21,625 bases of DNA from a virus. The stretch lies in the IMG/VR virus record IMGVR_UViG_3300043353_000012, positions 1-21,625 of that record. One strand, given 5' to 3'. Below are positions 4,083 to 17,880 of the stretch, piece after piece. The position numbers were made by a program, and so were the translations under genes. Every line of letters starts with the position of its first letter. Within the stretch, counting starts at the first letter, position 1. The notes under the pieces are model-generated. The model saw only the letters and a list, made by a program, of their open reading frames with translations, did not search any database and was not told where the DNA came from.

Positions 4083-5726
4083 TTGACCCTGCCTGGCGCG
4101 ACGATGCCGGTCCTTTATCGGGGGTCGAACACCGGTTCGCGCCTGTTAGCTGCCGAAAAACTTAAATCCCGCAAGAGGCCACAACGGCTGCCGTGGCACA
4201 AAAAAGGTTTGTCGCGGCTCGAGCGGGTGATGGCGTTCCTGGAATTTCTGCCGATCACCAAGGGCAAGCTGGCCGGCGAGAAAATGCACCTACTCGACAA
4301 TCAACGCGCATTCGTGGCCGAGCTGTACGGGCGCGAAGCCGACCAGGTGCGGCTCGGGATATTTTCGCAACCTCGCGGCAACGGCAAAACCGGACTGATC
4401 GCTGGCCTGATGCTGTGTCACCTGCTCGGGCCCGAGAGTGAGCCGCGTGGCGAGTGCTATTCGGCCGGCATCGATCGCCTGCAGGCCGGGCTGATTTTCA
4501 ACGAGATGGAAGCGATCATCGTCGACGTGCCCGAGTTCACGGCTCGCTGCAACATCCAGCGATTTCGTAAAGTGATCGAGGTGCTGGACGGCGACGGCAA
4601 GGGTTCGAAATACGAGGCACTGTCGGCCGACAGCCGCCGTGCGCATGGCCTGGCGCCGTCGTTCTGGGCCTATGACGAACTGGCGCAGACACGCGATCGC
4701 AACCTGCTCGACAACCTGCAGACAGCAATGGGCAAGCGCAAGCGTTCGCTCGGCCTGGTGATCTCGACGCAGGCGGCAAGCGACGTGCACCCGCTGTCGG
4801 AACTGATCGACGACGGCCTGCGCGGCAACGACAAAAGCATCGTGGTGCATCTGACCGCGGCGCCGGTTGATGCAGATCCGTTCGACCAGGACGTGATCCG
4901 CAGCGTCAACCCAGCATTCGATACGTTTCTCGACGCCAACGATATCTTTGCCGAGGCCGAGCGGGCGCGGCGGATGCCGTCGTTTGAAAGTGCGTTTCGC
5001 AACCTGCGCCTTAACCAGCGCATTGCGCCGCACGGCCGCAATCTGCTGTTTACGGCCGAGGCCTGGGCCGATGGGGATGCGGCGATCGACGATGGCATTT
5101 TCACCGATGGCCGGCCGGTCTATGGCGGCCTCGATCTGTCGGCCTGCATCGATCTGACGGCGCTGGTGCTGGCGGCCGAGGATGACGACGGCGTGGTGCA
5201 GTTCAAGCCGTTTGCCTGGACACCGACGGCGCGGCTCGAGGAACGCCAGCTTGTCGACCGCGCGCCGTACGACGTCTGGATCAAGCAGGGCTATCTCGCT
5301 GCGATCGAGGGTGCGGCGATCGACTACGATTTCGTGGCGCTCGAGCTCGGCCGGCTGTCGGAAAGTATGAACCTGGTGCGGGTTAATTACGATCGCTGGT
5401 CGATCAAGCATCTGCACCAGGCGCTGGCGCGTTACGGCGTTTCGGTGCCGCTGGAACCGTTCGGGCAGGGCTACGCCTCGATGGCGCCGGCGGTGAACGA
5501 GCTCGAGCGGCTGGTCGCCGCCAAGCGGGTCAGGCATGGCGGCGCGCCGATGCTGCGCTGGTGCTTTTCCAACGCGATCACGATCAAGGATGCCGCCGGC
5601 AACCGCAAGCTGGACAAGAGCAAAAGCTATTCGCGGATCGACGTCGCGGTGGCGGCGGTGATGGCGATCGGCGCCATGAAATGCCAGGACGCGCCGCCGG
5701 TCGAGATCGCGGCGATGATTGCTTAG
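4083..5726 (+). CDS. terL: Phage terminase large subunit (HK97-type)
   Basis: The 547-aa packaging motor has an N-terminal ATPase with Walker A QPRGNGKT (96-103) and Walker B with acidic pair WAYDE (196-199). Its C-terminal RNase H-like nuclease has acidic residues Asp351 in GGLDLS, Asp357, Asp437 in NYDRWS, and Asp520 in SRIDVAVAAVMA. It pumps DNA through the portal and cuts concatemers. The TTG at 4083 is preferred because GAGGAG at 4067-4072 sits 10 bases upstream; an ATG at 4104 is the alternative. No small terminase gene directly precedes it. Its stop codon overlaps that of the convergent minus-strand gene by 4 bases (5723-5726). Confidence 0.93.
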   Translation: MTLPGATMPVLYRGSNTGSRLLAAEKLKSRKRPQRLPWHKKGLSRLERVMAFLEFLPITKGKLAGEKMHLLDNQRAFVAELYGREADQVRLGIFSQPRGNGKTGLIAGLMLCHLLGPESEPRGECYSAGIDRLQAGLIFNEMEAIIVDVPEFTARCNIQRFRKVIEVLDGDGKGSKYEALSADSRRAHGLAPSFWAYDELAQTRDRNLLDNLQTAMGKRKRSLGLVISTQAASDVHPLSELIDDGLRGNDKSIVVHLTAAPVDADPFDQDVIRSVNPAFDTFLDANDIFAEAERARRMPSFESAFRNLRLNQRIAPHGRNLLFTAEAWADGDAAIDDGIFTDGRPVYGGLDLSACIDLTALVLAAEDDDGVVQFKPFAWTPTARLEERQLVDRAPYDVWIKQGYLAAIEGAAIDYDFVALELGRLSESMNLVRVNYDRWSIKHLHQALARYGVSVPLEPFGQGYASMAPAVNELERLVAAKRVRHGGAPMLRWCFSNAITIKDAAGNRKLDKSKSYSRIDVAVAAVMAIGAMKCQDAPPVEIAAMIA

Positions 5727-6037
5727 AGTGGCGGTGGCTTTTGCGCTTTGATGCAGAAAAAGGTGATCGACTGCATGTTGATCCTGGCGGAAATTTCGCG
5801 TCGAGCCGTCGCTGGATCGGCGATGAACCGTGTCGCCTCGGCCTCGGTGATGCGTTCGGCGATCACCGGGACCATGCAATTGCAGGCCGGCGCCTCGATC
5901 CACATCGGGTCATGGCAGCTTGGCACAAAATTCTGACGCACCCATGCCTGCGGATCGGTGCGGAATGATCCGGTGCCGGCCGTTGCGGTTGCAGTCAGAC
6001 AAAGCAAGGCGGCAATGCCGTGCAGAAGTTTCAGCAT
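5723..6037 (-). CDS. Small secreted four-cysteine protein, copy A
   Basis: This 104-aa product has a cleavable signal peptide (basic start, hydrophobic core, likely cut after ATA at about residue 20), so it should reach the periplasm. The mature part has four cysteines (Cys41, Cys52, Cys54, Cys95), including C-N-C in CNCMVPV, plus the motifs DPQAWVR and ERITEAE. The upstream minus-strand gene shares all of these, so the two are diverged tandem duplicates. GGAGG lies 8-12 bases before the ATG, and the gap to the upstream gene is only 16 bases, so they form an operon. The strand is opposite to every other gene here, as expected of a moron expressed apart from the lytic genes. I do not recognise the family. 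Confidence 0.75.
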   Translation of the reverse strand: MLKLLHGIAALLCLTATATAGTGSFRTDPQAWVRQNFVPSCHDPMWIEAPACNCMVPVIAERITEAEATRFIADPATARREISARINMQSITFFCIKAQKPPPL

Positions 6038-6053
6038 TGTGTAATTCCTCCGG

Positions 6054-6353
6054 TCACTTGCGCGGCATGCAGAGCATGCCGGCGCCCATAACGACCTTCA
6101 ACGTCCGCTGCTTGAAATCCGGTTCGTTGACGCGCGCGACGTCGGCCTCAGTGATCCGCGTTGCCAGCAACGGAACCATGCAGTCGCATTGCGCTACGGT
6201 TTCGGGGTCGGTGGGTGCCTTGCATCCTGGCGCCAGCGTATTGCGCACCCAGGCTTGCGGGTTGGCGCGAAACGATGCCGGATCCGCGTCAAACGCGACG
6301 GCCGGCGCGGTGAGGGCGCACGCGATGGCGGCGGCGAGGGCGAGGCGTTTCAT
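6054..6353 (-). CDS. Small secreted four-cysteine protein, copy B
   Basis: The 99-aa product starts at the ATG complementary to 6351-6353 with a clear signal peptide (MKRLALAAAIACALTAPAVA). It continues with FRANPQAWVR, then Cys44, C-D-C (Cys56/Cys58) in CDCMVPLL, TRITEAD, and Cys95 near the C terminus. These elements match copy A in order and spacing, and similarity is visible at DNA level too (for example around 5937-5968 versus 6244-6275). It is the first gene of the two-gene minus operon. Upstream extension of the frame to 6689 is possible but would bury the signal peptide, so the short form is chosen. Periplasmic action is inferred; superinfection exclusion or envelope modification are guesses. 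Confidence 0.75.
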   Translation of the reverse strand: MKRLALAAAIACALTAPAVAFDADPASFRANPQAWVRNTLAPGCKAPTDPETVAQCDCMVPLLATRITEADVARVNEPDFKQRTLKVVMGAGMLCMPRK

Positions 6354-6361
6354 GATGCCAA

Positions 6362-6406
6362 ACCGTAAGCACGCCGCCGGCGAGCCGACAACCGGGTTTT
6401 TACGGT
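6362..6406. promoter_or_regulatory. Inverted repeat ACCGTAA/TTACGGT between divergent genes
   Basis: ACCGTAA at 6362-6368 and TTACGGT at 6400-6406 form a perfect 7-base inverted repeat separated by 31 bases. It sits in the short gap between the minus-strand secreted-protein operon and the next + strand gene, where the moron promoter should lie. It could be an operator, but a 7-base repeat can arise by chance and no good -10 box is visible. Confidence 0.25.
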
Positions 6407-6428
6407 GATCACGAAGGAACACCGCAAC

Positions 6429-6683
6429 ATGTTGCTGGTGGCTGATCGCACCCGCGACGTCGACGTGATCGCGGCGATCGTCGACCATGTGCTGACCGAA
6501 AATCCCGATGCCACGCTGCTCGAGATCGAGATGTGCCTGCGCGACGGCGCTGGCCACAGTTACCTGATCGCGAACGGTCCGAAAATCGTGATCGGCATGC
6601 CGACGATGCTGGCCGAACTGGCAATCGCCGGCATTACGCCGGAACAGAACCGGGCCGCGCTCGCGGCCGCCACCAAGGAATAG
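6429..6683 (+). CDS. Hypothetical protein upstream of the capsid gene, 84 aa
   Basis: A start at ATG 6429 is supported by AAGGA (6414-6418) 10 bases upstream. An in-frame GTG at 6405 would give 92 aa but lacks a ribosome binding site and overlaps the inverted repeat. The product is an acidic, mixed alpha/beta small protein with one cysteine and a segment AGHSYLIANGPKIVIGMPTM. I do not recognise it. It ends 4 bases before the ATG of the protease-capsid gene, whose ribosome binding site (AAGGAA) lies within its final codons, so the two are probably coupled. A head-assembly accessory role is possible from position only. Confidence 0.6.
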   Translation: MLLVADRTRDVDVIAAIVDHVLTENPDATLLEIEMCLRDGAGHSYLIANGPKIVIGMPTMLAELAIAGITPEQNRAALAAATKE

Positions 6684-6687
6684 CAAC

Positions 6688-8586
6688 ATGCGCTATGCCG
6701 TCAAATCGGCGCCGCCTCCGGGTGTCGAGCCGCTGCAATTCGTCATGTCCGATGGTTCGATCGACCGCATGGGCGACGTGATCGAGCCGGGCGGCTGGCA
6801 ACTGACGAATTTCAAAACCCACCCGATCGCGCTGTTCAATCACGACAAAGATCAGATCATCGGCAAGTGGGTCGACGTTCGCGTCGAGGGCACCAAGCTG
6901 CTCGGCCGACTCGAGCTCGCCGCAGCCGGGACGTCGCCGCTGGTCGACACAGTGCGGGCGCTGGTCGATCAGAACATTCTGCGCGCGGTGTCGGTTGGTT
7001 TCCGACCGCTCGAGCAAAAGCCGCTCAACGAGGATGCCGACAAATATTTCGGTCCGTTCAAATTCATCAAATCCGAATTGCTCGAGTGCTCGCTGGTGGC
7101 GGTTCCCGCCAACCCGAACGCGCTCGCCACCGCAAAGTCGCTCGGTCTGTCCGGCGACTTCCTGTCCGAGGTGTTCCGCAAGACCGCGGGACCGACACCA
7201 CGGCCAGTTCCCGCCGCGCCTGGCAAATCTCTCGTGCCACAGGCAACGAAAATGAAAACCCTCTCCGAGCGCATCGAGAATGCGCAACAGAACCTCGTTT
7301 CCCTACGCGACCAACTGACCGGCATCACCAACGCCAGCGAAGAACCGGACGAAACCGCGCAGGCGCAAATCGACGAACTGACCGCGCAGATCGAGGCGCA
7401 ACAGAAATCGCTCGACGCGCTGGTCAAGGCGGAAGGCGGCCTTGCCGCGCGCACCTCGCCGCCGGCGCCGGCGGTGCAGCGACGTCAGATCGACGTCGTC
7501 GGCAAGAAATGCGAACCGCGCGACCATATCGTGCGGGCGATGGCGGTGCATTTCGTTGCCAAGATGACCGGCGCGCCGATCGATCACGTTTTGCGCGAAC
7601 GTTATCCCGGCGATGAAGGCACCGGCATTGTGCTGCGCGCCGCGGTGGCGCCGGCGCAAACTACGGTTGCCGGTTGGGCGGCCGAACTGGTCGGAACCGC
7701 AATTGCGGATTTTCTCAACCAGATGCCGATTATGGCGATCTATCCCAAGCTCGCCGGCAAGGGGCCGCGCTTCACGTTCGGCCGCAATGGCGTCATCAAG
7801 GTGCCGGGGCGCTCGGCCACGCCGAAAATCAATGGCTCGTTTGTCGGCGAGGGCCAGCCGATCCCGGTGCGCAAGCTCGGGCTGTCGGCCATCACACTGA
7901 CGCCGAAAAAGATGGCGGTCATCTCGGAATTCACGCGCGAGATGGGCTTGCACTCGACGCCGGCGATCGAGGGCGTGATCCGCCAGGCGATCAATGAGGA
8001 CACCGCCGAAGCGATCGACACCGTGTTGATCGACAACAACCCGGCAACTGTGATCCGGCCGGCCGGCCTGATTAACGGCCTGGTCGCGATCGGCGTGTCG
8101 GCGGCACCGACCCGGTTCGAAAAGATCGCCGCCGATATCCAGGCCTTGATGGCGCCGATCATCGCCGCGCGCGGCGGTCGCGACCTGGTGCTGTTGTGCA
8201 ACCCGGCGCAAAGCCTGGCGATGGATTGGGCGGTGACACCGGCGGGCACGTTCGTGTTCGCCGACAATGGTGCGCCTGGCATGCGCGGGCTTACGGTGGT
8301 GTCGTCGACCGTCGTGCCGGCGGCCACACTGATCATGCTTGATGCCGCGGATTTCGCATCGGTGACCGGCGACACGCCGGAATTCGACGTCAGCGACGTG
8401 GCGACGATCCATGAGGAAGACACCACACCGCTGCCGATCGGCACCGCCGGCGCACCGGCAACCGTCGCCGCACCGGCTCGCTCGCTGTGGCAGACGGCGT
8501 CGATCGGCATCCGCATGCTGCTCGATATGAACTGGTCGATGCGGCGCACGGGCATGGTGACGTTCATGACCGGCGTCACCTGGTAG
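6688..8586 (+). CDS. Fused HK97-family prohead protease and major capsid protein
   Basis: One uninterrupted 632-aa frame contains both proteins. Residues 1-160 are a peptidase S78-type prohead protease, with His52 in FNHDK, Ser102 in AVSVGF, and LLECSLVAVPANPNA at 131-145. A Pro/Ala-rich linker (165-187) leads to a helical coiled-coil-like stretch (189-250) resembling the HK97 delta (scaffold) domain. From about 265 to the end lies an HK97-fold major capsid protein. In HK97 these are separate genes, and the protease trims the delta domain after assembly. Here the protease would be covalently attached to every capsid subunit. The ATG at 7252 (residue 189) begins exactly at the delta-like domain and could serve as an internal start for free capsid subunits. 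Confidence 0.9.
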   Translation: MRYAVKSAPPPGVEPLQFVMSDGSIDRMGDVIEPGGWQLTNFKTHPIALFNHDKDQIIGKWVDVRVEGTKLLGRLELAAAGTSPLVDTVRALVDQNILRAVSVGFRPLEQKPLNEDADKYFGPFKFIKSELLECSLVAVPANPNALATAKSLGLSGDFLSEVFRKTAGPTPRPVPAAPGKSLVPQATKMKTLSERIENAQQNLVSLRDQLTGITNASEEPDETAQAQIDELTAQIEAQQKSLDALVKAEGGLAARTSPPAPAVQRRQIDVVGKKCEPRDHIVRAMAVHFVAKMTGAPIDHVLRERYPGDEGTGIVLRAAVAPAQTTVAGWAAELVGTAIADFLNQMPIMAIYPKLAGKGPRFTFGRNGVIKVPGRSATPKINGSFVGEGQPIPVRKLGLSAITLTPKKMAVISEFTREMGLHSTPAIEGVIRQAINEDTAEAIDTVLIDNNPATVIRPAGLINGLVAIGVSAAPTRFEKIAADIQALMAPIIAARGGRDLVLLCNPAQSLAMDWAVTPAGTFVFADNGAPGMRGLTVVSSTVVPAATLIMLDAADFASVTGDTPEFDVSDVATIHEEDTTPLPIGTAGAPATVAAPARSLWQTASIGIRMLLDMNWSMRRTGMVTFMTGVTW

Positions 8587-8650: not shown

Positions 8651-9364
8651 ATGACCGACCACGACGACAAGAAGCCCGGCGGCACACCGCTCGGCGCCGC
8701 ACGGCCAGGTGAAGGCGTGCACAAGCTCGGCGAGAAGCACGTCGACACGCGCCAGCATCCCGCCGCCGGCCAGGAAACCAACGCCAGGCACGACGACGAT
8801 AAGAAACCCGACACGCACCAGGGCGAACATGTGTCGACGTTTTCGCCGGAACAGTTGGCGACGCCGGCGCCGAACCTGGCCGGAAGCCGGCAGATGTACA
8901 TCATCGTCGGGCCATATAAGGGCTCGGTGCTGACCATGCCCGACGCCGAGGCGGAAGACGCTAAGGATAGCCATTGGGCGGTCGAGATGGACACCGTCGC
9001 GCCACCGTTCGACGCCGACAAGCCGCCCGAGCATGACCACGAACTATCAGAGGAAGATCGCGCCTATGCGGTCGAGGCCGCCGACGCCTGGGCGGCCAAA
9101 GTCAACGAGCCGCCCGACGAACCGCCGCCCGAGGGTGACGAAACCGAGGCGCAGCGCGAGGCACGCGAAAAGCGCAACGCCGACCGCAAGGCCGACCATG
9201 ACCGCCGCACCGCCGAACACGGCCGCCGCAAGGCAATGCATCCTGGCCGGCAACCAGGCGCCGGCTATGAAACGCGAACGGCCGACCATGATCCCGACGG
9301 CCGGCCGCCGAGCCGCAACCAGCCGACACCGGAGCCGCATAAGCCGGAACCGACAAAGAAGTGA
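8651..9364 (+). CDS. Charged, largely disordered protein between capsid and portal
   Basis: The 237-aa product starts at ATG 8651, which has a strong purine-rich ribosome binding site (GGGAAAAGGGA). A TTG at 8609 is the alternative but lies in the terminator-like stem. The sequence is very hydrophilic, rich in Asp, Glu, His, Lys, Arg and Pro, and mostly of low complexity, with repeated units such as HDDKKP. A short ordered segment (about 80-120, RQMYIIVGPYKGSVLTMPDA) could be a small beta domain. No family is recognised. Between capsid and portal it may be a head accessory or decoration protein, but that is positional inference. Its stop overlaps the portal start by 4 bases (GTGA). Confidence 0.65.
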   Translation: MTDHDDKKPGGTPLGAARPGEGVHKLGEKHVDTRQHPAAGQETNARHDDDKKPDTHQGEHVSTFSPEQLATPAPNLAGSRQMYIIVGPYKGSVLTMPDAEAEDAKDSHWAVEMDTVAPPFDADKPPEHDHELSEEDRAYAVEAADAWAAKVNEPPDEPPPEGDETEAQREAREKRNADRKADHDRRTAEHGRRKAMHPGRQPGAGYETRTADHDPDGRPPSRNQPTPEPHKPEPTKK

Positions 9365-11157
9365 GCCTGGTTTCGCGCATGATGGGCGCCTTTCGCGGCA
9401 AGGCTGCGGAAGGCGAATACCGGCCGGGACCGTATTTGCTCAACGACGGCGGCTGGCTGCCGGCCTCATGGGGCAAGTTCGCGAATTTCTGGCAAATGGG
9501 CTACGACCCGGTGCCGTTCGGGGCCGGCTCGGCAATGGTTGAGGCGTGCGTGTCGGCCTATGCGCAAACGCTGGCCATGTGCCAGATGAACCACTGGCGC
9601 GACCTCGGCAATGGTGGCCGCGACCGGGTAACGAATTCGGCGCTGTCGCGGGTAATGCGGGCGCCGAACGATTACCAGACCTCGAGCGATTTCATTCTCA
9701 ACGCGGTGCGCTCGCTGTACCTCGATGGCAACGCCTATGCGCTGGCGCTGCGCAACGATCGTTTCGAGATTGCGTCGCTGCACCTGATGCACCCGAACCG
9801 GTGTCGCGCCCAAACGTACGGCGGCGAGATTTATTACTCGCTCGGCGGCAATGGCGTGATCGACAGCCGCCTGGAAGTGCTCGAGCTCGGTCAATTGTCG
9901 GCGGTGCCGGCGCGCGACGTGTTTCATGTGAAACTGCAGACGCCGCGCGATATCCTCAAAGGCGAAACGCCGCTGACGGCTGCCGCATTGGCGATCGCCG
10001 CCAATAACGCCATGATGACGCAGGCGATCGCGTTCTATGGCAACCAGTCGCGGCCGTCGGGTGTGCTGCAGACCGACATGGTGCTGACGCCGGCGCAGGT
10101 GACGGAATTGCGCAGCCGGTGGGATGACCAAGCGCGCGGGCTCGCCGCCGGCGGCACGCCGATCCTGACCTCGGGCCTGAAATTCGAGCCGATCACGGTG
10201 AGCCAGGCCGACGCGCAATTCGCCGAGGCGATGAAACTCTCCGACCAGCAAATCGCCGAGGTGTTCCGGGTGCCGCTCGCCATCATCGGCTCGGAAGCGC
10301 AGCCGATGGGCTCGACCGAGGCGCTGATGGCGTTCTGGATCGGTGGCGGCCTCGGCTTTGCGCTGAACCAGGTCGAGCTCGCGATCGACCGGCTGTTTGG
10401 TCTCGCCAAGATCGACGGCGAGTATTCAGAATTCGATACCTCGATCTTGCTGCGCTCGGCGTTCCAGCAACGCATCGAGGGCCTGGCGCGGGCGGTGCAG
10501 GGCGGTATCTACTCGCCGAACGAGGCGCGCGCGCTCGAGGGCCTGCCGGCGGCCAAGGATGGCAACGAGCCCCGGGTGCAGCAACAGGTGGTTCCGCTCT
10601 CGGCCTGGGATAAGCAACCGCCGGCGCCGGTCGCGTCGCCGGCACCGCCGCCGACCGATCCCGGCGCCAACGATGCCACCGCCGGCAAGGCGCTGCTGGC
10701 GACCACAGCGGCCGTCATGGTGCGCGTGCTCGAGCGGCTCGACGACTACGGCAACGTGATCAAGTTCCCGACGCCGGTGCCGGGACCGCCAGGACCGCCG
10801 GGCGAGCGCGGCGAGGCCGGCCGCGACGGTCGTGACGGGCTGCCAGGGGAAAAGGGCGAACGGGGCGACCCTGGCGAAAGGGGCCCGGACGGGGCAGCCG
10901 GCGTCGCTGGTATGCCCGGCGAACGCGGGGCGCCTGGTGAGCCAGCCTATGCGGGGCAAGCCTGTGGGTTATGGACTGCGGCGGCAAACTACCGGGGAAT
11001 GGACGTGGTCGCCTGGAACGGTTCCGAATGGCGCGCCAGGTGCGAGAACCCGCAAGGCGAACCCGGCAAAAGCGATGACTGGTACCTCGGCGCCAAGGGA
11101 TCGCGCGGCAAGCCGGGCGAACGCGGGCCGCCAGGTCCGGCAGCGGTGACGGCATGA
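9361..11157 (+). CDS. HK97-family portal protein with collagen-like C-terminal tail
   Basis: Residues 1-415 are a typical HK97 portal, the dodecameric ring through which DNA enters the head. Visible family features include the N-terminal segment with ACVSAYAQTLA, LYLDGNAYAL, VFHVKLQTPRD, KGETPLTAAA, and IAEVFRVPLAIIG. After a Pro/Ala linker (418-440) come 18 perfect Gly-X-Y triplets (475-528), then a compact Trp/Tyr-rich module (529-576, NYRGMDVVAWNGSEW), and about six more triplets (577-594). Collagen-like repeats normally form trimers and are usual in tail fibres, not portals. The start is GTG 9361, overlapping the previous stop by 4 bases. The frame is continuous across the junction, so this is a true fusion unless the assembly is wrong. 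Confidence 0.9.
   Translation: MSLVSRMMGAFRGKAAEGEYRPGPYLLNDGGWLPASWGKFANFWQMGYDPVPFGAGSAMVEACVSAYAQTLAMCQMNHWRDLGNGGRDRVTNSALSRVMRAPNDYQTSSDFILNAVRSLYLDGNAYALALRNDRFEIASLHLMHPNRCRAQTYGGEIYYSLGGNGVIDSRLEVLELGQLSAVPARDVFHVKLQTPRDILKGETPLTAAALAIAANNAMMTQAIAFYGNQSRPSGVLQTDMVLTPAQVTELRSRWDDQARGLAAGGTPILTSGLKFEPITVSQADAQFAEAMKLSDQQIAEVFRVPLAIIGSEAQPMGSTEALMAFWIGGGLGFALNQVELAIDRLFGLAKIDGEYSEFDTSILLRSAFQQRIEGLARAVQGGIYSPNEARALEGLPAAKDGNEPRVQQQVVPLSAWDKQPPAPVASPAPPPTDPGANDATAGKALLATTAAVMVRVLERLDDYGNVIKFPTPVPGPPGPPGERGEAGRDGRDGLPGEKGERGDPGERGPDGAAGVAGMPGERGAPGEPAYAGQACGLWTAAANYRGMDVVAWNGSEWRARCENPQGEPGKSDDWYLGAKGSRGKPGERGPPGPAAVTA
10783..10944 (+). repeat. Collagen-like Gly-X-Y repeat, 18 triplets
   Basis: Every third codon encodes glycine across residues 475-528 of the portal product, with many Pro at X or Y and charged GER, GEK, GDP and GPP triplets. 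The regularity is perfect over 54 codons. A second run of about six triplets follows at 11089-11142, after a 48-residue spacer module. Confidence 0.9.
11089..11142 (+). repeat. Second collagen-like run, about six triplets
   Basis: GAK, GSR, GKP, GER, GPP and GPA triplets close the portal product (residues 577-594). The run is separated from the first by a small Trp-containing module of a type often found between collagen repeats in bacterial and phage fibre proteins. Confidence 0.8.
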
Positions 11158-11934: not shown

Positions 11935-12280
11935 CGGCGCGGGTGACCTGCGCTATCGGGTGACATTCGCCGAGCGCGACAGCGTCGAGGATGAATATGG
12001 CAACGTCACCACCGGCTGGATCGATCGCTTCACGGTGTCGGCCAACATCATCGCCAAGCTCGGCGGCGAGGCGGTCGATGCGGCGCGGCTGGCCGGCCGG
12101 CAGCCGGTCATCATTCGGGTGCGCAAGTCGCCGGATACGTCGCTGGTGACAACCGACTGGAAAGCCACCGACCAGGCCGGCCACGAATACAACATCCGGA
12201 CCGCTGTCGACCCCCTCGTCGGCGACAGCCAGCACGGGTTCTGGATCGAGATGTTCGCGGAAACCGGCGTCGCGGTATGA
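11909..12280 (+). CDS. Head-tail joining / head closure protein
   Basis: This 123-aa protein matches the phage head-tail adaptor (head closure, SPP1 gp16-like) family: an opening GDLRYRVTFAERDSVEDEYGN, a central beta barrel (VSANIIAKLGGEAVDAARLAGRQPV), and the end motif YNIRTAVDPLVGDSQHGFWIEM. Such proteins seal the DNA-filled head and form the docking ring for the tail. The ATG at 11909 lies inside the preceding gene. The stop overlaps the next ATG by 4 bases (ATGA). Gene order (connector, small gene, closure, tail terminator) supports the call. Confidence 0.85.
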   Translation: MPSGLASVSGAGDLRYRVTFAERDSVEDEYGNVTTGWIDRFTVSANIIAKLGGEAVDAARLAGRQPVIIRVRKSPDTSLVTTDWKATDQAGHEYNIRTAVDPLVGDSQHGFWIEMFAETGVAV

Positions 12281-12465
12281 CCACGAAAGAACTTGCCGCG
12301 CAGGTGATCGAGCAATTGCGCGGCACGCCGTTCGTGCTGGCGCTGATCGTGATCAACTGCATCGCGCTGGCCGGCTTTGCCTTCACGCTGCACGAGGTGA
12401 GTAAGGGTAATTCGCGCCGCGACGCCATGATCCAGGCGTGCATTGAAAGATCATCCAGGCCGTGA
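12277..12465 (+). CDS. Small single-pass membrane protein, 62 aa
   Basis: The start overlaps the head-closure stop (ATGA) and the stop overlaps the next gene (GTGA), so it is a coupled gene in the neck operon. Residues about 19-38 (FVLALIVINCIALAGFAFTL) form one clear transmembrane helix between short, charged, soluble ends with a cysteine at residue 55. Structural neck genes have no obvious need for a membrane protein. It might be a holin-like or inhibitory membrane protein, or an anchor for assembly. Nothing decides this from sequence. Similar small TM proteins seem to recur at this place in rhizobial phages (from memory, not checked). Confidence 0.7.
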   Translation: MTTKELAAQVIEQLRGTPFVLALIVINCIALAGFAFTLHEVSKGNSRRDAMIQACIERSSRP

Positions 12466-16799: not shown

Positions 16800-17425
16800 G
16801 GGATATCAGCGCGGCCAACCTCGACGCGCTGCAAAAGCGCATCCTGATGCCGCGGGATTTCATTTGGTTTGTGGTGCGCAACCGCACCGACGGCACGCCG
16901 GTCACGGACGGTTACTGGTCGGACGTCGGATCGATATCAGCCGATATAGTCGATCCCGACACCGGCGGCGTCGTGACCCGCACCTGGGCCGGCGCCGGCT
17001 CGCTGATCCAGATTTCGGATATCCCGCTGGTATCGAGCCTGACGGTGCAGAATATCACCGTGACCTTGAGCCAGGTGGCCGACCGCGTGAACAACCTGGT
17101 GCGCGGCTATGACTGCAAGCAAGGCCGGGTCGAGATTTACCGCGGCCTGTTCGATCCCGAGACCCGCAAGATGGTGGCGGCGGCCACGCCGCGGTTTGTC
17201 GGCACGATCGACGAAGCACCGATCACCACGCCGGCCGAGGGTGAAAACGGCGACGTCACGCTGACCTGCACCTCGAACACCGTCGAGCTAACGCGCGCCA
17301 ATTCCGACACGCGATCGGACGCATCGCAAAAGCTGCGGCGTGCCAATGATGATTTTTTTGTCGACACCGCCGTCGTCGGCGATTGGCAACATTTCTGGGG
17401 CCGCGCCACCGGGGCGGTTTCATGA
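16796..17425 (+). CDS. Baseplate hub-like tail protein (GTA gp13 position)
   Basis: GTG 16796 overlaps the preceding stop (GTGA) and gives 209 aa; the longer in-frame ORF from 16703 only shadows the previous gene. The protein is beta-rich, with RDFIWFVVRNRTDGTPV near the N terminus, a YDCKQGRVEIYRGLFD segment in the middle, and a C-terminal DFFVDTAVVGDWQHFWGR. These features match tail proteins in the lambda L / GTA gp13 (DUF2163-like) position, which form the hub under the tail tube. Family assignment is by position and general resemblance. The stop overlaps the next ATG by 4 bases. Confidence 0.7.
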   Translation: MRDISAANLDALQKRILMPRDFIWFVVRNRTDGTPVTDGYWSDVGSISADIVDPDTGGVVTRTWAGAGSLIQISDIPLVSSLTVQNITVTLSQVADRVNNLVRGYDCKQGRVEIYRGLFDPETRKMVAAATPRFVGTIDEAPITTPAEGENGDVTLTCTSNTVELTRANSDTRSDASQKLRRANDDFFVDTAVVGDWQHFWGRATGAVS

Positions 17426-17880
17426 TCCGGCCGGGGGTTGTCGCCGACGTCGCGGCCGTGGTGACCATGCTGCGGCATTCGCGCCAGGCGGCCGGGTTCG
17501 ATCGCCGTGACAGCGTTACCGGGTTTAATTTTCCGTTTGATCCAGCGTATGCCGAGCGGTTGCTGTTGGTGCATCTGATGCCGCGGCATGTCTGCCTGGT
17601 GCTGGATATCGACGGCACAGCGCAAGGCGTGCTGATGGCTACCTATGCCGAGCATCCATTTGGGCCGGTGCGGCTGGCGCGCGAAACGGTGTGGTGGATC
17701 GAGCCGGAATACCGCGGTCGCGCGGCGGTTGAAATGCTCGACGCCTATGAAAACTGGGCGTGCGCCAACCATTGCCAGTTTATCGGCATGGCGGGCATGG
17801 GTGACGATCCCGACGTCGGCAAGCTCTACAAGCGGCGCGGCTACCGGATCGCCGAAACCCATTTCTTGAAGGCGGTCTAG
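17422..17880 (+). CDS. GNAT-family N-acetyltransferase in the tail operon
   Basis: ATG 17422 overlaps the previous stop (ATGA) and gives 152 aa. The fold reads as a GNAT: MIRPGVVADVAAVVTML as beta 1 and alpha 1, VLDIDGTAQGVLMA as beta 2-3, RETVWWIEPEYRGRAAVEML with the acetyl-CoA pyrophosphate-binding loop (94-105), and LYKRRGYRIAETHFLK at the end. The substrate is unknown. In lambda and GTA tail operons this slot usually holds an NlpC/P60-type peptidase (lambda K, GTA gp14), so a GNAT here is a notable replacement. It could modify a tail protein or a host target, or be a virion-associated structural relic. Confidence 0.82.
   Translation: MIRPGVVADVAAVVTMLRHSRQAAGFDRRDSVTGFNFPFDPAYAERLLLVHLMPRHVCLVLDIDGTAQGVLMATYAEHPFGPVRLARETVWWIEPEYRGRAAVEMLDAYENWACANHCQFIGMAGMGDDPDVGKLYKRRGYRIAETHFLKAV

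Follow-up and report, generated by a model that had tools for sequence, protein, structure and literature searches.

What are two small minus-strand genes doing between the terminase and capsid genes of a phage? The question is raised by a virus record of 21,625 bases, the whole of which was analysed and is here called the window. Its features of interest are collected in Table 1. That the two ORFs, named A and B, lie at this place and that the genes flanking them are all on the plus strand was claimed by the original prediction and agrees with the coordinates, as does the 4-nt overlap of gene ends between the stop of B (5723-5725, minus strand) and the stop of TerL (5724-5726). Gene A is upstream of B in reading order, and because 16 nt separate the stop of A from the start of B, the two are probably read as a single operon. 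The other plus-strand genes in the window encode a Cas4-type exonuclease, a Toprim/AAA_25 protein, an HNH nuclease, the portal protein and tail proteins. Two smaller observations concern this plus-strand set: a 62-aa protein with one hydrophobic stretch and no PHROG match is encoded among the head-tail genes (12277-12465), and an acetyltransferase (phrog_1249, 3e-21) lies within the tail module (17383-17880).

Table 1. Features around genes A and B in virus record IMG/VR IMGVR_UViG_3300043353_000012 (21,625 bases)
Feature	Position	Strand	Remarks
TerL (terminase large subunit)	4083-5726	+	PF20441 7e-34, PF03354 2e-12; left slot border
Gene B	5723-6037	-	104 aa; paralogue of A; predicted cleavage ~ATA/GT; helical four-cysteine mature part
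Accessory slot, TerL to 92-aa gene	5727-6404		
Ribosome-binding site of B, GGAGG	6047-6051	-	9 nt before ATG of B
Gene A	6054-6353	-	99 aa; predicted cleavage ~AVA/FD; helical four-cysteine mature part
92-aa 'ADRT' gene	6405-6683	+	conserved, function unknown; right slot border
Prohead protease-major capsid fusion	6688-8586	+	PF04586 + PF05065

The two proteins are 45% identical over 65 aa (E 5e-16) and have the motifs SFRx[DN]PQAWVR, CMVP and RITEA in common, which bears out the claimed shared motifs and supports the view that A and B are paralogues with one ancestor. In the viral contig collection a sole further homologue was identified, P0003 in the 42 kb phage record L001, which is 66% identical to A and is the only copy of the family, an A-like one, in that phage. 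When A is compared with this homologue in the minus frame, dN/dS is 0.33 (NG86) or 0.23 (YN00), and 0.38 in a second alignment, and the substitutions at codon positions 1, 2 and 3 number 20, 18 and 41. Among the six frames compared, the minus frame is the only one that is free of stops in all of A, B and the L001 homologue, and it has the lowest dN/dS in the A-L001 and A-B pairs; in the B-L001 pair it is level (0.43) with antisense frame 1 (0.42), which shares third-codon positions with it and carries a stop in B. The codon-position G+C of both genes fits the genes of this phage. The 682-nt slot was also shuffled 2000 times with its dinucleotides preserved: 2% of the shuffled sequences had a single antisense signal-peptide-like ORF of at least 95 aa and none had two (0/2000), where signal peptides were recognized by a simple hydropathy rule, not by SignalP. 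By these comparisons of sequence, A and B are real genes with the minus frame under purifying selection; the overall minus-frame dN/dS against L001, 0.2-0.4, differs from the value near 1 that the original prediction had named as the sign of an unselected frame.

All three proteins retain the signal peptide and the four cysteines of the mature part. Signal peptides had been proposed for both A and B, and the sites found in their sequences are indeed of the AxA type recognized by SPase I (AVA/F in A, ATA/G in B). The mature part starts with FRx[DN]PQAWVR and continues with C, CxCMVP, TEA and the last C. The cysteines are C44-C56-C58-C95 in A and C41-C52-C54-C95 in B, so that the proposed order C, CxC, C is correct, but the spacing is not exactly matched, with 11-1-36 residues between the cysteines in A and 10-1-40 in B. 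There is one extra cysteine inside each signal peptide; in B and in the L001 protein it has Leu at -1 (ALLC), and ~7-9 residues follow before the AxA-type site. No lipobox with a lipidated N-terminal cysteine was recognized in the signal peptides. The signal cysteine therefore does not form a lipobox, and both proteins are expected to occur in soluble form in the periplasm.

The structure prediction that had been suggested for both proteins gave a helical fold without a structural match. The AlphaFold2 models, built on the three-sequence alignment, are all-helical with mean pLDDT 80 and 79 for A and B, and the mature domains are mostly confident. In the model of A, the CxC motif is located on helix 50-66 and C44 in the preceding loop, while the last helix (78-95) ends with C95; from these positions, two disulfides joining C44 and C95 to C56/C58 are plausible. 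Foldseek returned no PDB match for either protein (E <= 0.001) and no BFVD match for A.

How widely is this family distributed? Profile searches of A and B in Pfam, PHROGs, NCBIfam and PADLOC gave nothing credible, in Pfam even at E up to 10, in agreement with the earlier remark that the family was not recognized. With tblastn at E <= 1, no match was obtained for A in phage and plasmid records or for B in phage records, and relaxed searches up to E = 10 in phage/plasmid records gave chance matches only. A Sinorhizobium match (E = 8) was rejected, since it is located in no ORF having a signal peptide and the C...CxC...C layout. A profile search of genome contigs with the family alignment found no member. 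The HMM search of two samples of bacterial genomes, 663 in all (266 from the Bradyrhizobium group, 397 from the order), also found none; it was run without a positive control, with the same profile that found L001's phage at 5e-55. Two other genomes gave weak matches (E 0.04; an internal stop in one of them), which were taken as noise. The Bradyrhizobium-group relatives of TerL (36-50% identical) have no comparable A/B gene after TerL, and a generic scan of 839 kb of DNA for C...CxC...C together with a signal peptide retrieved the A/B family only. As far as these searches reach, the family is an orphan, with only one other virus found to carry a member. The original prediction had named absence of the ORFs, with signal peptide and cysteines, from relatives as refuting it; the presence found is narrow, namely the one homologue in L001. 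The proposal of an undescribed system of two paralogues is upheld in part: the pair is present in the window and belongs to no recognized family, but L001 has a single A-like copy, so that the family need not form a two-protein system everywhere.

The main result beyond the original prediction concerns the site. Related phages were gathered by terminase and by the 92-aa gene, and the gap between TerL and the 92-aa gene was read in each, which is the survey of the same slot that the original prediction had called for. In six phages (L009, L010, L023, L032, L062, L068) the slot is empty or the genes overlap (0-20 nt). In five (L006/L070, L066, L067, L069, L071) it measures ~180-205 nt and encodes a ~55-aa 2-TM protein in the sense direction, and in three (L004, L005, L011) it measures 260-380 nt and encodes other antisense exported proteins. 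The ~55-aa protein (MTLGLAYWVLMLVWLVF...), which has two hydrophobic stretches and no PHROG or Pfam match, could be a holin-like or an exclusion protein. The antisense exported or membrane-anchored fillings are A and B in the window, the A-like protein in L001, a 63-aa protein with two cysteines in L004/L005 and a 96-aa protein in L011; they represent three unrelated families, one shared by the window and L001, one by L004/L005 and one in L011. The slot ORFs of L004/L005 and L011 end 5 nt past the TerL stop. Between L004 and L005 the codon-position differences are 1/0/7 with one amino-acid change, and the minus frame there behaves as a coding frame should; such an antisense ORF arises by chance in 1.3% (L004) and 0.3% (L011) of shuffles. 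The slot proteins of L004 and L011 are unlike A/B, and the rest of the viral collection contains no relatives of them.

All occupied slots with the TerL/92-aa gene order encode a small membrane or exported protein. L004 and L006, whose TerL is 76% and 80% identical to that of the window, have other slot contents, whereas the more distant L001 (57%) shares A, and therefore the contents are exchanged independently of the terminase. From the sequences compared, the slot is a place where exported accessory genes are swapped and has been filled several times, and the accessory placement expected of a moron is seen in that close relatives have nothing or something else there. In the slot of L001, one A-like gene is followed by another two antisense ORFs (94 aa and ~229 aa; L001:6276-7159), for which no family was found. 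The 92-aa gene (L001:5656-5970) is also inverted in this phage and heads the antisense operon there. This gene has no known domain, and its three Bradyrhizobium-group chromosomal relatives are located away from terminase and capsid genes.

The signals for expression give a partial picture. Own ribosome binding sites had been claimed for both genes; this is true of B, with its GGAGG 9 nt before the ATG, but no Shine-Dalgarno sequence precedes A. No sigma-70-like promoter was found for A/B, by a scan that alphaproteobacterial promoters may not fit, and no terminator was found after B. The phage of L001 encodes a tyrosine integrase (PF00589, 2e-10) and a GH25 endolysin and is probably temperate. 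No integrase is present within the 21,625-nt window; a prophage setting for A/B is nevertheless plausible because their sole relative sits in an integrase-bearing phage. The phage of the window is probably a temperate siphophage of an alphaproteobacterium, the host being suggested by the relatives of this phage. Two side observations arise from the comparison with L001. An ATP-dependent DNA ligase domain (PF01068, 8e-21), likely an accessory gene, is encoded upstream of TerL in L001's phage (L075:6414-7034), and the portal ORF of the window (9361-11157) has a collagen-like repeat tail (PF01391, residues ~475-532) that in L001 is a separate ORF after the portal gene.

What function could such a pair perform? 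No homologue of known function was found for A/B, by sequence or by fold. Export, dispensability, exchange, antisense placement and selection together match the description of a moron, and it is tentatively proposed that the pair is a two-gene moron whose products act in the periplasm and most likely serve superinfection exclusion. Transcription from a separate A/B promoter would run against the structural genes, with expression presumably best in the lysogen, in which no late sense transcript is made. After export via Sec and removal of the signal peptide, each protein would form a small helical bundle with two disulfides in the periplasm, in which the first and last cysteines may pair with the CxC of the central helix. 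The bundles could then attach to some part of the envelope, the likeliest targets being an outer-membrane receptor or an injection-assisting protein, and superinfecting phages would be excluded by that binding. Two diverged copies could serve two targets or form a heterodimer. A stronger version would make the slot a hot spot dedicated to small exported anti-phage proteins, many of them antisense for lysogen expression, and A/B the first two-paralogue periplasmic exclusion system with a new helical disulfide fold; this version is rather unlikely to hold in full.

Lysis, toxin immunity and host fitness are further roles of exported accessory genes, and such roles were weighed against exclusion. 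It is unlikely that A/B are immunity or fitness factors of lysogenic conversion, such as inhibitors of the toxins or enzymes of competitors: as small, helical, periplasmic, cysteine-containing and paralogous proteins in a mobile slot they recall the T6SS immunity proteins of the Rap1a/Tai4 type, but Pfam gives no match at E up to 10, Foldseek gives no PDB match at E <= 0.001 although structures of that type have been solved, and no cognate effector gene is found beside A/B among the proteins scanned, which are a subset of the ORFs. A late role, in which A/B would be read from the minus strand late in infection as periplasmic regulators of holin, endolysin or spanins (similar to T4 RI) or as aids to virion release, is improbable. 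The slot is empty in six relatives and its function is therefore dispensable, the GH25 endolysin of L001's phage is ~21 kb away, and antisense orientation is ill-suited to co-expression with late genes, even if small exported proteins are typical of lysis control and the sense 2-TM protein in the same slot of five relatives is possibly holin-like. Quite improbable is another periplasmic role in infection, for example the blocking of envelope-based host defence or stress sensing by an A-B heterodimer; the divergence of the two paralogues, their shared operon and the purifying selection on them would suit it, but L001 has a single copy and PADLOC gave no match of weight. Finally, the reading that these are antisense frames open by chance in GC-rich DNA, with the plus strand as the true coding strand, can point to overlapping long plus-strand ORFs (5920-6408) and to the tie of antisense frame 1 in B-L001, but is refuted at the sequence level by the paralogy, the signal peptides, the stop in that frame of B, the dN/dS values and the shuffles, and retains hardly any probability.

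If superinfection exclusion is the right reading, comparing this slot across related phages would directly yield candidates for screens of superinfection exclusion or surface effects in soil alphaproteobacteria, where such functions are little known: small exported proteins for which the family libraries searched gave no credible match. A/B themselves present a small protein fold without a match in the structure libraries searched. The exchangeable slot suggests swappable helpers that alter the surface of the infected cell and perhaps keep other viruses out.

Among known systems, HK97 gp15 and P22 sieA are morons at variable sites that change the lysogen surface or block DNA entry. A and B resemble them as accessory genes at a variable site; however, gp15 and SieA are inner-membrane proteins, whereas A/B are predicted to be soluble in the periplasm and are read against TerL. 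The Rap1a/Tai4 T6SS immunity proteins are similar in being small, periplasmic and helical with disulfides, but A/B have no Pfam or Foldseek match and no adjacent effector was seen; membership in that group is not detectable by Pfam profile or Foldseek. A likeness in kind is also seen to Llp (T5), Cor (T1/phi80) and Rtp45 (Rtp), which are small exported periplasmic phage proteins encoded by accessory genes. These are small outer-membrane lipoproteins, as are the solved periplasmic exclusion proteins of the size of A/B, whereas A/B have SPase I-type signals and no usable lipobox, so that an Llp/Cor-type lipoprotein identity is ruled out. A/B further differ from them in the predicted helical fold, the four cysteines and the paired genes, and neither the PDB search by sequence nor Foldseek detected a relation, the presence of each of these structures in the libraries being unconfirmed. 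Llp of T5 binds FhuA from the periplasm (PMC9586334) and Rtp45 binds LptD (PMC12685063), in both cases for superinfection exclusion, and both have an intramolecular disulfide (PMC9586334, PMC12685063). By analogy, A and B may work like Llp and Rtp45 without being members of their families.
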